Below, one piece after another: positions 37,487 to 47,497 of a DNA stretch of 64,000 bases; the stretch's first letter is position 1, and each line of letters begins with the position of its first letter. The DNA is taken from the NCBI RefSeq assembly GCF_009176705.1, contig NZ_AP021846.1, forward strand, positions 3,654,001 through 3,718,000, read 5' to 3'. The stretch is from Pseudoalteromonas sp. A25. Its GTDB lineage: Bacteria > Pseudomonadota > Gammaproteobacteria > Enterobacterales > Alteromonadaceae. A program made the translations under genes and the position numbers. Under the pieces are notes generated by a model. That model did not search any database and had not been told where the DNA came from. It saw only the letters and a program-made list of their open reading frames with translations.

Positions 37487-37682
37487 CTGGAAGAGGTGCG
37501 TTATTCAGGTAATTGTGTGGAGGGGAGCAAACCCTAATGATACACAATGAGGGGAATTAACGCCGAGAAGTTTAGCGTATTTGCGTTGCGTTAACTTCGG
37601 GCGACTGGGCTGAATCCCAGCGACTGTCACCAATTATTTTGTGTTAAACACAAAATAACTCAGTTTGGTGGAGAGCTTCTGG
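37487..37682 (+). ncRNA. Lysine riboswitch aptamer (L box)
   Basis: The 196-base leader carries the conserved L-box elements in order: AGAGGTGCG (37492-37500), GGGGAA with CGCCGAG (37551-37567), the GGGCTGAATCCCAG hairpin then CTGTCACC (37608-37631), and GGTGGAGAGCTTCTGG (37667-37682). The closing P1 stem CTGGAAG/CTTCTGG contains G-U pairs. Lysine binding should shut down the dapA-dapD-lysA-desuccinylase operon. A perfect 7-bp inverted repeat (GGCCAAG/CTTGGCC) just upstream is not part of the aptamer core. Confidence 0.92.
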
Positions 37683-37693
37683 TCTTAGAATAA

Positions 37694-37761
37694 TAAGGCC
37701 ATTTGCCTTGTCATTTTTAAGTCCATTGCTCTTCGAATTTTAACTGTTCGAAGTTTGGACT
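37694..37761 (+). promoter_or_regulatory. Riboswitch expression platform: candidate terminator and a downstream stem-loop
   Basis: AAGGC CATTT GCCTT (37694-37708), followed by TTTTTA, is a weak terminator candidate. It is followed by a long stem, AGTCCA with CTTCGAA pairing TTCGAAG and TGGACT (37720-37761), without a T-run. Lysine control could act by termination, by access to the dapA ribosome site, or both. I cannot decide from sequence. Confidence 0.4.
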
Positions 37762-37799
37762 CCCTCCAAAACTCCGGACACGATATAAGTTCGGTAGAG

Positions 37800-38684
37800 A
37801 TGAAATCACAATTCGATTTATCCAACTATCCGTTATGGACGGCTTTAGTAACGCCTTTTGACGCGCAAGGTCAAGTTGACTATGACACTTTAAGCACACT
37901 GGTCGCAGAGCAGCAAAGTGCCAACAATGGTCTATTAATTTTAGGCAGCACGGGGGAAGGGCTTGCGCTTAGCCAAGGTGAGCAACGTACGATTGTTGAA
38001 CATGTTTGCGCTTTATCTCCGTCAGTACCCATTATGGTCGCTGTGGGCGGCTTTAACCTAGCAGAGCAACTTGAGTGGCTCGCATTTTGCGATACTTTAC
38101 CGATTGATGCCTACTTACTTGGCTCCCCACTTTACGCAAAACCAGGCATCGTTGGGCAAACTCAGTGGTTTGATGCCTTGCTTGGTGCAACAGAACGCCC
38201 ATGTATGATTTACAACGTACCGGGGCGCAGTGCAGTCGCAATCAGTCCACAAGTCCTAAACAACCTAAAACATCACCACAACCTTTGGGCTGTAAAAGAA
38301 GCCAGTGGTGACATTGCCACCTTTGAAGCGTTTCGCCAAGCTGCGCCCAATGTAGCCATTTTTAGTGGCGACGATGCGCTTATGCCCTACTTTGCCCAAG
38401 CGGGTGCTGCGGGTTTAGTATCAGTGGCTGCCAATGCTTGGCCAGAACAAACTGCCGAATTTGTGCGACGCTCATTAGCAGGCACTTTCCCAAACTTATT
38501 CGCAACCTGGACGGACGCGGTTAACAGCCTATTTGCTGTGGCAAACCCAATTCCCGTTAAAGTGCTGATGCATGCGCAAGGTAAATTGGCCACGCCAAAC
38601 CTACGCCCTCCTTTGACACACCTTGAGCTGCCTTGCAGCCAAGCACTGAACAACGCAAACGAATCAATTTTATCTTGGAACTAA
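37800..38684 (+). CDS. dapA: 4-hydroxy-tetrahydrodipicolinate synthase
   Basis: DapA condenses pyruvate with aspartate semialdehyde, the first committed step of lysine synthesis. The 294-residue TIM barrel has LGSTGEGLALS, MIYNVPGRSA with the catalytic Tyr, and WAVKEASGDI with the Schiff-base Lys. The ATG at 37800 gives the family N-terminus before NYPLWTALVTPF; an upstream in-frame start at 37755 would fall in the leader stem. It is the first gene of the riboswitch operon, 10 bases before dapD. It is probably a lysine-dedicated copy, because the genome should also need an unregulated source of meso-DAP. Confidence 0.93.
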   Translation: MKSQFDLSNYPLWTALVTPFDAQGQVDYDTLSTLVAEQQSANNGLLILGSTGEGLALSQGEQRTIVEHVCALSPSVPIMVAVGGFNLAEQLEWLAFCDTLPIDAYLLGSPLYAKPGIVGQTQWFDALLGATERPCMIYNVPGRSAVAISPQVLNNLKHHHNLWAVKEASGDIATFEAFRQAAPNVAIFSGDDALMPYFAQAGAAGLVSVAANAWPEQTAEFVRRSLAGTFPNLFATWTDAVNSLFAVANPIPVKVLMHAQGKLATPNLRPPLTHLELPCSQALNNANESILSWN

Positions 38685-38694
38685 GGCAATCATT

Positions 38695-39435
38695 ATGAGC
38701 TGGTTAGAACTATTAAATAATTTAGAAAACGGCAGTGTGCGTGCTGCAACGCAAGACGAAAATGGCAATTGGCACGCCAACGTAGAAGTAAAGCAAGGTA
38801 TTTTAGAGGCATTCAAAAACGGCACTAATACCGAGTTTCCGGGTGGCTTTGTTGATAAGCACAATTTAGCACCGCAAGGCTTTGCTGCCGATGCAGGTGT
38901 GCGTATGGTACCAGGTGGCACCAGTGTACGTCGTGGCGCTCATGTTGCTGCGGGCACCATTATCATGCCACCAGCGTACGTAAACATCGGTGCGTTCATT
39001 GATGAGGGCACGATGGTGGATAGCCACGCGTTAGTCGGCTCATGTGCACAAGTAGGTAAAAATGTGCATTTAAGCGCCGCTGTACAACTAGGTGGAGTAT
39101 TAGAGCCAATCGGTGCAAGCCCAGTAGTGATTGAAGACGATGCTTTTATTGGCGCGGGTTGTGTGATTGTTGAGGGCGTAGTCGTTAAAAAAGGCGCGGT
39201 ACTGGCGCCGGGTGTACGTTTGTCGGCAACTATTCCAGTATACGACTGCGTGAATGAACGAGTGCTGGACAAAGGCGAGCCAATTCCAGAAAACGCCATT
39301 GTGATCCCAGGCTCTCGCCCATCATCAAGTGCATGGGGCCGCGAGCAAGGCTTAAGCATGTCATGTGCACTTATCGTCAAATACCGCGATGAGAAAAGTG
39401 ATGCCTCACTAGAGCTGGAAGAGGTATTACGCTAA
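38695..39435 (+). CDS. dapD: Tetrahydrodipicolinate N-succinyltransferase
   Basis: DapD transfers succinate from succinyl-CoA to tetrahydrodipicolinate, giving N2-succinyl-2-amino-6-oxopimelate. The 246-residue protein is a left-handed beta-helix built of hexapeptide repeats (about 75-190) and has the family motif VNIGAFIDEGTMVDSHALVGS. It is about 28 residues shorter than E. coli DapD, mostly at the N-terminus. Its stop shares a base with the lysA-like start (TAATG). It sits in a lysine-riboswitch operon, so its product is probably meant for lysine. Confidence 0.93.
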   Translation: MSWLELLNNLENGSVRAATQDENGNWHANVEVKQGILEAFKNGTNTEFPGGFVDKHNLAPQGFAADAGVRMVPGGTSVRRGAHVAAGTIIMPPAYVNIGAFIDEGTMVDSHALVGSCAQVGKNVHLSAAVQLGGVLEPIGASPVVIEDDAFIGAGCVIVEGVVVKKGAVLAPGVRLSATIPVYDCVNERVLDKGEPIPENAIVIPGSRPSSSAWGREQGLSMSCALIVKYRDEKSDASLELEEVLR

Positions 39436-40640
39436 TGCCCTTTTTGAGCACCGCCCATCGTCAGGTGATTGAAAATATCACCCAAACCGAGCAAACACCG
39501 TTTTTTATTTACGACTTAGATGCGCTATTGGCACACCTAAAACCACTTACAGAGCAATCGGTAGTGAAGTTATGGTACGCCGTAAAGGCCAACCCATTGT
39601 CAAAAATAGTGCAAACGTTGGATAAAGCAGGGTTTGATTTTGACGTAGCAAGTTCTGGCGAGTTAAACCAAGTTTTAGCTCAAGGTGTTTGCCCCTCACG
39701 CGTGCTCAACACTGGACCTGCCAAATCTAAAAGGCAGATCCAACACTTTTTGTCACAAGGGGTTCGCACCTTTGTGGCAGAAAGTCACAATCAAGTGGCT
39801 TGGCTCAACCAAGCTGCCAGCGACCATAATATTCAGTTACGTGTTTTACTGCGCGTGCAATTACGCTGGCCAGAAGGCGAAAAAAACCCATTAGGTGGTG
39901 ATAGCTTAACGCCATTTGGGCTCGGTACAGAGCAATGGCAATCTTTGGATATTACCTCATTCAGCTCACTTGAGTTTGTTGGCCTACATATTTTCCAATG
40001 GGGTAATATGCTCAGCACCGATAAACTAGCAAGCCTGTGGTCACAAATGGTGCCACCTCTAACTCAGCTGGCTGACGACCTTGGCTTTAAGTTACGCATT
40101 TTAGATTTGGGCGGCGGTTTAGGCATTCCTTATACTAAAGATGAACCTGCTCTTGCGTGGCCGCAATTAGTTGATGCCCTAGCCACCATCAAAGCCTCAT
40201 CGGGTGTTGAAGAGTTATGGATGGAGCTTGGCCGCTATGCCGTAGGCGAATGCGGTCATTATGTAAATTCAGTTGTAGAACAAAAACAAAACTACAATGA
40301 ACACCAATTGATCGTTGCAGGCGGCATTAACCATATTCTGCGCCCCGCAGTGACCAATCAAGCTTTTCCATGCACCTTATTGCGTGAATCAAACGCCCAT
40401 GCGAGAAGCTATCTGATCCATGGGCCATTGTGTACTGCACTCGATCATCTTGGCCGCCACACTTTACCCTGTGATATCAATGAAGATGACTGGCTAGTGT
40501 TCAGCCAATGTGGTGCCTACGGCTTTACCGAAAGTATGCCGTACTTTTTGTGTCACGAATTGCCAGCTGAATATGTGATAGAGCAAGGCCAAATAACGTG
40601 CGTTCGCGCATCACAAGCGGCCAGTGAGTACTTGAGGTAA
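39435..40640 (+). CDS. Diaminopimelate decarboxylase-like PLP enzyme (fold type III)
   Basis: The 401-residue protein is an alanine racemase-fold decarboxylase of the LysA group, with PLP Lys51 in LWYAVKANP, LDLGGGLGIPY for the phosphate, and GAYGFTE. It departs from canonical LysA at several positions. The LysA CESxD signature is replaced by CTALD (Cys333-Asp337), the usual HIGS-type loop reads HIFQWGN, and ELGRYAVGECG stands where LysA has EPGR. Those variants occur in relatives such as BtrK-type decarboxylases that act on blocked L-amino acid substrates. Its place between dapD and an AstE-like desuccinylase suggests it could decarboxylate N-succinyl-LL-diaminopimelate; this is inference. 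Ordinary LysA activity on meso-DAP remains possible. Confidence 0.85.
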   Translation: MPFLSTAHRQVIENITQTEQTPFFIYDLDALLAHLKPLTEQSVVKLWYAVKANPLSKIVQTLDKAGFDFDVASSGELNQVLAQGVCPSRVLNTGPAKSKRQIQHFLSQGVRTFVAESHNQVAWLNQAASDHNIQLRVLLRVQLRWPEGEKNPLGGDSLTPFGLGTEQWQSLDITSFSSLEFVGLHIFQWGNMLSTDKLASLWSQMVPPLTQLADDLGFKLRILDLGGGLGIPYTKDEPALAWPQLVDALATIKASSGVEELWMELGRYAVGECGHYVNSVVEQKQNYNEHQLIVAGGINHILRPAVTNQAFPCTLLRESNAHARSYLIHGPLCTALDHLGRHTLPCDINEDDWLVFSQCGAYGFTESMPYFLCHELPAEYVIEQGQITCVRASQAASEYLR

Positions 40641-40647
40641 TCAGAAC

Positions 40648-41760
40648 ATGAACCAAATCAGCCAAGAAAATATCCTAGTGGGCGAAATCGCCAATGGCTT
40701 ACCGCTGACCATTCCTGTTTATCGACTAACAGGAAACGGCAGTGGTCCAAAAGTGTATATTCAGGCCAATATGCATGGTGCTGAGGTGCAAGGTAACGCG
40801 GTTATTTACCAATTGCTTGAGCAGCTAAAGCAACAAACACTGGCCAGCGATATCACCTTAGTACCGTATGCCAACCCAATTGGCTGTAACCAAAAATCAG
40901 GGGAGTTTACCCTCGGTCGATTTGACCCCATAACGGGCACCAACTGGAACCGCATGTACCACAACCACACCAAGCTGGTTGATGAATTTGTTACAACGCA
41001 CTTAAATAGCTCGCTTGCAGAAATCAAACAAGCATTTAAGCACTTACTCGTGCAAAGCACTCAAGCTGTATTAGATGGCCCAGCCCACAGTATCAATACC
41101 GGCAAACGTATTGCACTTAATTTGCAGCGCTTGGCACACGAGGCAGATATTGTGCTCGACTTACACACCGGACCAATTTCAGCAAAACACTTATACTGTC
41201 CTGAATATGCTAAACCAAGCGCAAGTTATTTTGATATTGAGCATGTCTTATTGATCCCTAACGAATTTGACGGCGCAATGGACGAAGCCTGCTTTTGTCC
41301 ATGGTGGTCACTCAGTGAAGCGTTTAAGCAGCATGGCCGCGATATCCCCGTATTGGTGGAGGCGTTCACTGTGGAACTAGGCTCACAAGAAAAAATCGAC
41401 TTAGCTGAGGCCAAAAACGACGCCAACAGTATACTTAGTTACTTAACCCACAAAGAGGCATTGCTTAATTCACCCTACCAGCCAAAAGCAATGGCCCGCT
41501 ATGGCTGTATGTTGACAGATTACTTAGCCTTTTATGCGCCAATGGGCGGCATGGTAGAGTATGTGGCGCCTTTAGGTGCGCATATTAAAGCGGGTGATAC
41601 CATCGCACATATTTTGCGTATGGAGCGCTATTTAAGCGAGCAACCACTGCAAGTCATTACTCTAGATACAGATGCCATCGCTATTTTGCATTTTGCCTCA
41701 GCATCGGTGAATCAAGGCACCGAGCTCTATAAGTTTTTTACCAACTACTTTGAACTCTAG
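40648..41760 (+). CDS. AstE/aspartoacylase-type N-acyl deacylase (M14 zinc hydrolase)
   Basis: The 370-residue protein belongs to the succinylglutamate desuccinylase/aspartoacylase group of M14 zinc carboxypeptidase-like enzymes. Zinc ligands are visible at NMHGAEVQGN (His43, Glu46) and DLHTGP (His173), and the catalytic Glu in VELG (about 243). AstE removes succinate from N2-succinyl-L-glutamate. The gene sits 7 bases after the lysA-like gene in the lysine-riboswitch operon, where a desuccinylase (DapE role) is expected, yet DapE itself belongs to a different family (M20). It is therefore either a substitute for DapE or the enzyme that releases lysine from N2-succinyl-lysine. A terminator follows at 41816. 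Confidence 0.85.
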   Translation: MNQISQENILVGEIANGLPLTIPVYRLTGNGSGPKVYIQANMHGAEVQGNAVIYQLLEQLKQQTLASDITLVPYANPIGCNQKSGEFTLGRFDPITGTNWNRMYHNHTKLVDEFVTTHLNSSLAEIKQAFKHLLVQSTQAVLDGPAHSINTGKRIALNLQRLAHEADIVLDLHTGPISAKHLYCPEYAKPSASYFDIEHVLLIPNEFDGAMDEACFCPWWSLSEAFKQHGRDIPVLVEAFTVELGSQEKIDLAEAKNDANSILSYLTHKEALLNSPYQPKAMARYGCMLTDYLAFYAPMGGMVEYVAPLGAHIKAGDTIAHILRMERYLSEQPLQVITLDTDAIAILHFASASVNQGTELYKFFTNYFEL

Positions 41761-41815: not shown

Positions 41816-41842
41816 TGGCGGCATTCGCCGCCAGCCTTTTTC
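41816..41842 (+). terminator. Terminator of the lysine operon
   Basis: TGGCGGC and GCCGCCA form a 7-bp GC stem, followed by CTTTTTCTT, 56 bases after the desuccinylase gene. Confidence 0.85.
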
Positions 41843-47267: not shown

Positions 47268-47497
47268 AGCAACCTCTGGTTAGGCCGTATCGCTCTCCAA
47301 ACCCGAAGTTTGGCACCATACGTAGTTTATACAAATTAGTGGACGCGTATTTTAAGTAACTCTAAAACGATCCACAAGCAATAAATCACCGATTTTGGTA
47401 TTTTTTGTACAACTAAAACGCTAGCAACGCTATTACGCTAGGTTTTTTGGTGCGCCTTTAGTACATTACTCGTATATATCGTCTACCACAAAGGCTC

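Follow-up and report, generated by a model that had tools for sequence, protein, structure and literature searches.

In this study, we analysed a 64,000-nucleotide stretch of Pseudoalteromonas sp. A25 DNA (contig NZ_AP021846.1, positions 3,654,001 to 3,718,000; hereafter the window), in which a lysine riboswitch heads four genes: dapA, a divergent dapD, a gene for a pyridoxal phosphate (PLP)-dependent decarboxylase (dec), and a gene for a hydrolase of the AstE/AspA family. The operon, which occurs in some marine bacteria, is real, conserved and specific; its gene content and order, the riboswitch, the family and clade of the decarboxylase and its aligned active-site residues were observed directly. 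It probably adds to the succinylase diaminopimelate (DAP) pathway a second ending under repression by lysine, which would bypass meso-DAP by decarboxylation of N-succinyl-LL-DAP followed by desuccinylation. LL is the configuration made by the succinylase DAP pathway. In the proposed scheme, the operon DapA and the DapB of the cell would supply tetrahydrodipicolinate, the operon DapD would succinylate it, and a shared transaminase of the DapC/ArgD type would yield N-succinyl-LL-DAP. Dec would then decarboxylate this compound at the end that bears the free L-amino group, and the hydrolase would free lysine from the resulting N2-succinyl-L-lysine. The canonical dapD, dapE, dapF and lysA would stay for meso-DAP. 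We infer the substrate, the stereochemistry, the acyl group and the order of the last two steps.

An earlier note on this DNA had described a riboswitch heading dapA, dapD, a LysA-like decarboxylase and an AstE-like hydrolase, and this arrangement was borne out by the covariance model (RF00168, 99.4 bits), the open reading frames and the protein models. The four genes are closely packed, and the last base of dapD is the first base of dec. The operon DapA scored 251 bits on NCBIfam TIGR00674 (cut-off 206) and matched no solved structure at E 1e-40. The genome consists of two contigs with two lysine riboswitches in all, the second of which lies upstream of a gene named lysC by eye. The earlier note had also reported the absence of dapE and dapF and called for a search of the rest of the genome for these genes and for a canonical lysA. 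The absence holds for the operon but not for the genome, since the search found all three: a canonical dapE (556 bits) and a canonical lysA with the motif CETGD, which adjoins dapF. A second dapD passed the canonical model and was 43% identical to the operon dapD. As canonical dapD, dapE, dapF and lysA are present elsewhere in the genome, the operon is an extra, lysine-controlled addition to the succinylase pathway.

The relationship between Dec and LysA was examined using protein models and phylogeny. Dec scored 203 bits on NCBIfam TIGR01048 (lysA) and did not pass the cut-off of 297.9; the dec loci of all 21 genomes found to carry the gene gave 152-215 bits on this model. The exosortase-A decarboxylase model TIGR03099 was not passed either (200 bits vs a cut-off of 478). 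By sequence, the best match among solved structures was BtrK, followed by LysA and SbnH, and the closest of the matches listed for the window protein were Pseudoalteromonas proteins. A first tree, built from 63 rows, set the Dec family (20 rows, support 100/100) apart from LysA (31 rows, 97/98; 30 genomes of one order and one Aquifex enzyme). A second tree omitted the two longest rows and took in eight from a third homologue search, of which six bore the name of Bacteriovorax, Halobacteriovorax or one of their families. Dec (28 rows) and LysA (31 rows) were again separate groups, each with support of 100/100; in both runs the tree tool warned that long branches meet. BtrK and SbnH were long branches with no firmly supported grouping with Dec, no one of BtrK, SbnH and the exosortase type stood out as closest to Dec, and FigC was left out. 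Nine exosortase-type rows were included, one of which (L066) was checked by model. The earlier note had named a position inside canonical LysA as evidence against its proposal, and Dec did not take that position. An ordinary LysA was rejected because Dec falls below the model cut-off, belongs to a separate clade and disagrees in active-site residues. These results indicate that, judged from sequence, the Dec family is a clade of its own, distinct from LysA.

In Thermotoga LysA, docking and mutants point to Arg249 and Arg285 as the residues that bind the distal carboxylate of meso-DAP, and to Glu315 for the distal amine (PMC8277567). The E315T mutant lost most DAP activity and preferred 2-aminopimelate, a compound that lacks the distal amine (PMC8277567). 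We mapped these residues to R267, R303 and T334 of Dec by motif (EPGR, LRP and CExxD), the Thermotoga sequence not being in the alignment. All three were fixed in 360 of 360 relatives, made up of the 120 top matches from each of three homologue searches, queries included. The CTALD and HIFQWGN motifs to which the earlier note drew attention are present as stated. At the distal-amine position, all 31 LysA rows have Glu (CExxD), and the Dec family has Thr. Thr also stands there in BtrK, SbnH and the nine exosortase-type rows; the second Arg is missing from BtrK and the exosortase-type rows, and in SbnH an Arg lies one column away from it. The exosortase-type decarboxylases (L064-L072) carry a CTPLD motif, having the Thr in common with Dec. 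Since Thr replaces the Glu while both Arg residues for the distal carboxylate are kept, the pocket would fit a substrate such as N-succinyl-LL-DAP, in which the distal end has a carboxylate but the amine there is not free. FigC, SbnH, AcsE and BtrK fall on a common branch with LysA, and their substrates are L-amino acids whose far end is blocked (PMC7857480). By analogy with these enzymes, and from the LL configuration of the pathway, Dec would be expected to be L-specific. The aligned residues thus support a substrate that offers a distal carboxylate but whose distal amine is blocked or missing, such as N-succinyl-LL-DAP.

We then examined the distribution of the operon. Dec was found at 340 bits or more in 21 of 394 genomes of the order, in nine genera by our own count, and the next score was 163. 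Among the 20 loci fetched, dapD was the next gene upstream of dec in all 20, dapA stood in the same gene row in 14, and a lysine riboswitch was found in 16. The hydrolase adjoined dec in 18 of the 20, or 18 of the 19 that could be judged; the exceptions were G165, where the contig ends inside dec, and G380, an Oceanisphaera-like genome. Eight loci of one genus have the order riboswitch, lysC (named by eye), dapA, dapD and dec, and the hydrolase is present in all seven whose sequence extends far enough. A collection with one genome per species held 157 loci encoding a Dec relative, of which the 80 named loci were kept (69 from Pseudoalteromonas and 11 from Colwellia or Thalassotalea). In 77 of these the order was dapA-dapD-dec-hydrolase and in three dapD-dec-hydrolase, and the riboswitch was found in all nine Colwellia/Thalassotalea loci scanned of the 11. 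The canonical models were passed by DapF in all 21 carriers (two partial at contig ends), by LysA in 20, DapE in 19 and DapD in 18.

One of the carriers, G029, has a Dec of the Bacteriovoracia type, the matches listed for it including Halobacteriovorax and Bacteriovorax proteins. In its locus (L091, G029:C178), a divergent dapB (107 bits, cut-off 122) heads dapD, dec and the hydrolase gene, and the contig carries DarP between two PmbA/TldD genes. A Bacteriovoracia-type Dec on a contig with these genes suggests transfer. Contamination was considered as the source of this operon and is unlikely, since DarP and PmbA/TldD also adjoin the operon in L076 (G147); base composition of the contig did not discriminate for or against it. 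G029 was also without canonical dapD and dapE, but the assembly is fragmented (92% complete, 5% contamination) and nothing was drawn from this absence.

The genome G380 is a single contig, and its Dec shares 94% identity with an Oceanisphaera protein. It keeps dapD and dec, with canonical lysA and dapF intact. DapE was absent from G380 (best score 106 bits), while all three sister genomes gave 583-588 bits. In the sister genome G335, dapE lies between two genes that we named by eye, one arsC-like and one carboxypeptidase-like; in G380 these two neighbours overlap and dapE is gone. We found in G380 a gene for meso-DAP dehydrogenase (Ddh) at G380:C1:3022576-3023565 (L295:2576-3565), which scored 469.9 bits on TIGR01921 (cut-off 180.6) and matched Pfam DAPDH_C. 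When ddh was sought in G335 by synteny, the synteny was not kept. Because of Ddh, meso-DAP in G380 need not come via N-succinyl-LL-DAP, although dapD and dec are kept. About 40% of G380 was read, and the only other hydrolase of the AstE/AspA type there was distant (33% over 66 residues); the aminotransferase matches were left unclassified. These results support a separation of the succinyl branch from meso-DAP in G380, where a desuccinylase or DapL may lie elsewhere in the genome. We lean slightly towards a meso-DAP-independent end of lysine synthesis with a new activity, N-succinyl-LL-DAP decarboxylase, in Pseudoalteromonas, Colwellia and relatives, the Oceanisphaera-like genome and, by protein, Bacteriovoracia. 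Two DAP pathways would then run in parallel, one for the wall and a lysine-gated one for protein; in the Oceanisphaera-like genome, Ddh would provide meso-DAP for the wall, and DapD and Dec would lead to lysine.

The operon DapD passed PRK11830 (295 bits, cut-off 204) and failed TIGR00965 (181 bits, cut-off 375). Against known structures it gave 174 bits with succinyltransferases and 85 bits with acetyltransferases. In a comparison of the operon DapD (window 38695-39435, L073-L092) with canonical DapD, 18 near-fixed positions differed, all within residues 60-175 and two of them insertions; Gly155 stands where canonical DapD has Arg. The operon hydrolase scored 100.8 bits on Pfam PF24827 (AstE_AspA) and reached no NCBIfam equivalog cut-off. 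Its full length aligned strongly with PDB 3fmc (433 bits) and 3lwu (428 bits), and it matched the deacetylase model DoeB weakly (37 bits vs a cut-off of 403). Neither the DapE model TIGR01246 nor any M20 model of NCBIfam or Pfam matched it. H43, E46, H173 and E243, which we take to be zinc ligands and base, were identical in 17 rows linked to dec, 12 linked to lysC and 11 others; this count leaves out L091 and L110-L112, the four that are most distant.

Several observations weigh against the proposed pathway. The hydrolase was matched in 71 of the 394 genomes, and in 65 at 240 bits or more; only 19 of these carry dec, leaving 46 without it. In 12 of 23 dec-less genomes examined, the hydrolase gene directly follows lysC, and a lysine riboswitch was found in all six such loci scanned. 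The loci L094-L099 (G089, G182, G159, G382, G171 and G078) are operons of riboswitch, lysC and hydrolase without dapD or dec. The hydrolase must thus have a lysine-linked role without Dec and cannot serve N2-succinyl-lysine alone. This role perhaps concerns N-succinyl-LL-DAP or an acylated lysine, outside the present scheme; the literature listed on lysC-hydrolase operons gave no explanation of it. Replacement of DapE by the hydrolase in these genomes was rejected, since canonical DapE is present in all 12 of them, and it was above cut-off in 43 of 45 genomes checked. G380 has no close hydrolase homologue, and no riboswitch was found in four of the 20 loci scanned (G380, G357, G194 and G029). 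We saw no aminotransferase in the open reading frames of the operon or in the related loci. None of the 21 carriers is clearly without lysA; the one missing it, G096, probably owes this to a contig end, as its dapF match starts at base 4 of the contig. The divergence of the operon DapD at 18 near-fixed positions means that its acyl donor may differ and that the acyl group is assumed. Finally, Thermotoga LysA E315T was still D-stereospecific (PMC8277567), so Thr alone does not confer L-specificity. The meso-DAP-independent pathway put forward in the earlier note therefore gains from the clade, the active site, the dapD-dec-hydrolase order and the dapE-less, Ddh-bearing G380, and loses from the hydrolase that also occurs without dec. 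Since we infer the activity, the L-stereocentre and the succinyl group, and since the hydrolase is found without dec, the interpretation is only partly supported.

The main rivals to decarboxylation of N-succinyl-LL-DAP are an ordinary LysA booster and a swapped order of the last two steps. In the first, the hydrolase would substitute for DapE and Dec would be a diverged LysA acting on meso-DAP, so that the operon merely boosts lysine output. The lysine riboswitch, the score that Dec still reaches on the LysA model and the N-acyl amino acid deacylases that are generally known in the hydrolase family fit this explanation. It is nevertheless rather unlikely, because Dec lies below the LysA cut-off and outside the LysA clade and lacks the distal-amine Glu, because DapE is so widely present in the genomes checked, and because the operon has no dapF. 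The earlier note had offered a simpler alternative of this kind, an M14 enzyme in place of DapE with ordinary LysA, which fits worse given LysA in 20 and DapE in 19 of the 21 carriers and DapE in all 12 lysC-hydrolase genomes. In the second, the hydrolase would first desuccinylate N-succinyl-LL-DAP, and Dec would then act on the L-centre of LL-DAP to give lysine, with DapF and meso-DAP also bypassed. The hydrolase in lysine-regulated lysC operons without dec suggests action on a general pathway intermediate, as this order would have it. We consider it unlikely, as none of the 360 relatives listed has the Glu that recognises a free amine at the distal end, and G380 keeps dapD and dec without a close hydrolase or DapE. 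Another acyl group such as acetyl, with the DapD homologue as an acetyltransferase, Dec acting on N-acetyl-LL-DAP and the hydrolase as a deacetylase, would agree with the changed near-fixed sites of DapD and the weak DoeB match; it is very unlikely given the higher score of DapD on succinyltransferase structures and its passing of PRK11830. A side product (a secondary metabolite or acylated lysine) instead of lysine for growth is highly improbable: BtrK- and siderophore-type relatives do work in secondary pathways, but it would sit poorly with the riboswitch, with dapA or lysC in many such operons and with the hydrolase, which would break down an acylated product.

The features of the locus are listed in Table 1. 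The terminator-like hairpin lies 56 bases after the end of the hydrolase gene, and the next gene encodes phospholipase A1. This gene is unlikely to be a member of the operon, since the hairpin precedes it and only 49 of the 80 named loci have it after the hydrolase. An L31 ribosomal protein leader (RF03157) was found at window 47272-47322 on the minus strand. A second DapE-like M20 protein in the window genome (G000:C1:980864-981973, L005) scored 353.6 bits, just short of its cut-off (361.8). The sole lysA above cut-off in G357 and in G194 is on another contig than dapF, and G321 has two lysA above cut-off, one of them unlinked to dapF.

Table 1. Features of the lysine riboswitch operon (window positions)
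Feature	Position	Strand	Basis
Lysine riboswitch aptamer RF00168	37483-37686	+	Covariance score 99.4 bits vs gathering 30, E 1e-25
Candidate terminator hairpin 3' of aptamer, possible expression platform	37693-37711	+	Pattern match only
dapA-type gene (4-hydroxy-tetrahydrodipicolinate synthase)	37755-38684	+	Open reading frame, TTG start; in-frame ATG alternative at 37800
Divergent dapD, tetrahydrodipicolinate N-succinyltransferase type, 246 aa	38695-39435	+	Open reading frame, models
dec, alanine-racemase-fold PLP decarboxylase, proposed N-succinyl-LL-DAP decarboxylase	39435-40640	+	K51, R267, R303, T334
AstE/AspA-family hydrolase (M14 type), proposed N2-succinyl-lysine desuccinylase	40648-41760	+	Open reading frame, Pfam
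Terminator-like hairpin with T run after operon	41816-41833	+	Pattern scan only; 7 pairs, 6 G-C

The DAP routes described so far all end with the action of LysA on meso-DAP (PMC8277567); lysine and peptidoglycan thus compete for one intermediate. If the proposed route is true, a branch before DapE would uncouple lysine from the wall, and riboswitch control of lysine would spare the wall. It would also mean that a textbook pathway has an ending not recognised so far, would call for a new annotation of a gene that now often goes under the name lysA (157 loci with a relative in the one-genome-per-species collection), and would offer engineering a lysine route independent of DapF and LysA. The operon is already in print. 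A Pseudoalteromonas haloplanktis riboswitch operon has been listed as dapA-dapD-lysA-hypothetical1-hypothetical2, and a Bacteriovorax marinus operon as lysC-dapB-dapA-dapD-lysA (PMC5584792). The former is apparently the operon of the window; its third gene is called lysA, and no alternative pathway is proposed in the accessible part of that source (PMC5584792). In the open-licence literature, we found no proposal of lysine without meso-DAP from this operon, nor the enzyme or pathway by name.

Dec was compared with known enzymes. It shares with LysA (TIGR01048) the fold family, the PLP lysine, the two Arg of the EPGR and LRP motifs and the lysine context. It differs in having CTxxD for CExxD, ELGR for EPGR and HIFQWGN for HIGSQ, in addition to clade and score. 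Within the BtrK/SbnH/FigC(FslC)/AcsE group, BtrK and SbnH have the Thr at the distal-amine position in common with Dec. Unlike BtrK, Dec keeps the second distal-carboxylate Arg of LysA (one column away in SbnH), and it is encoded in a lysine operon. The exosortase-A-associated decarboxylase (TIGR03099) has ELGR and CT..D motifs as in Dec, without R303. The hydrolase resembles 3fmc and 3lwu (PF24827), both of which bear only putative or family names, and matches no succinylglutamate desuccinylase equivalog. With the succinylase DAP pathway (DapD, DapC, DapE, DapF and LysA), the proposed route would have the early steps and DapD in common, whereas it would leave before DapE and skip DapF and meso-DAP.

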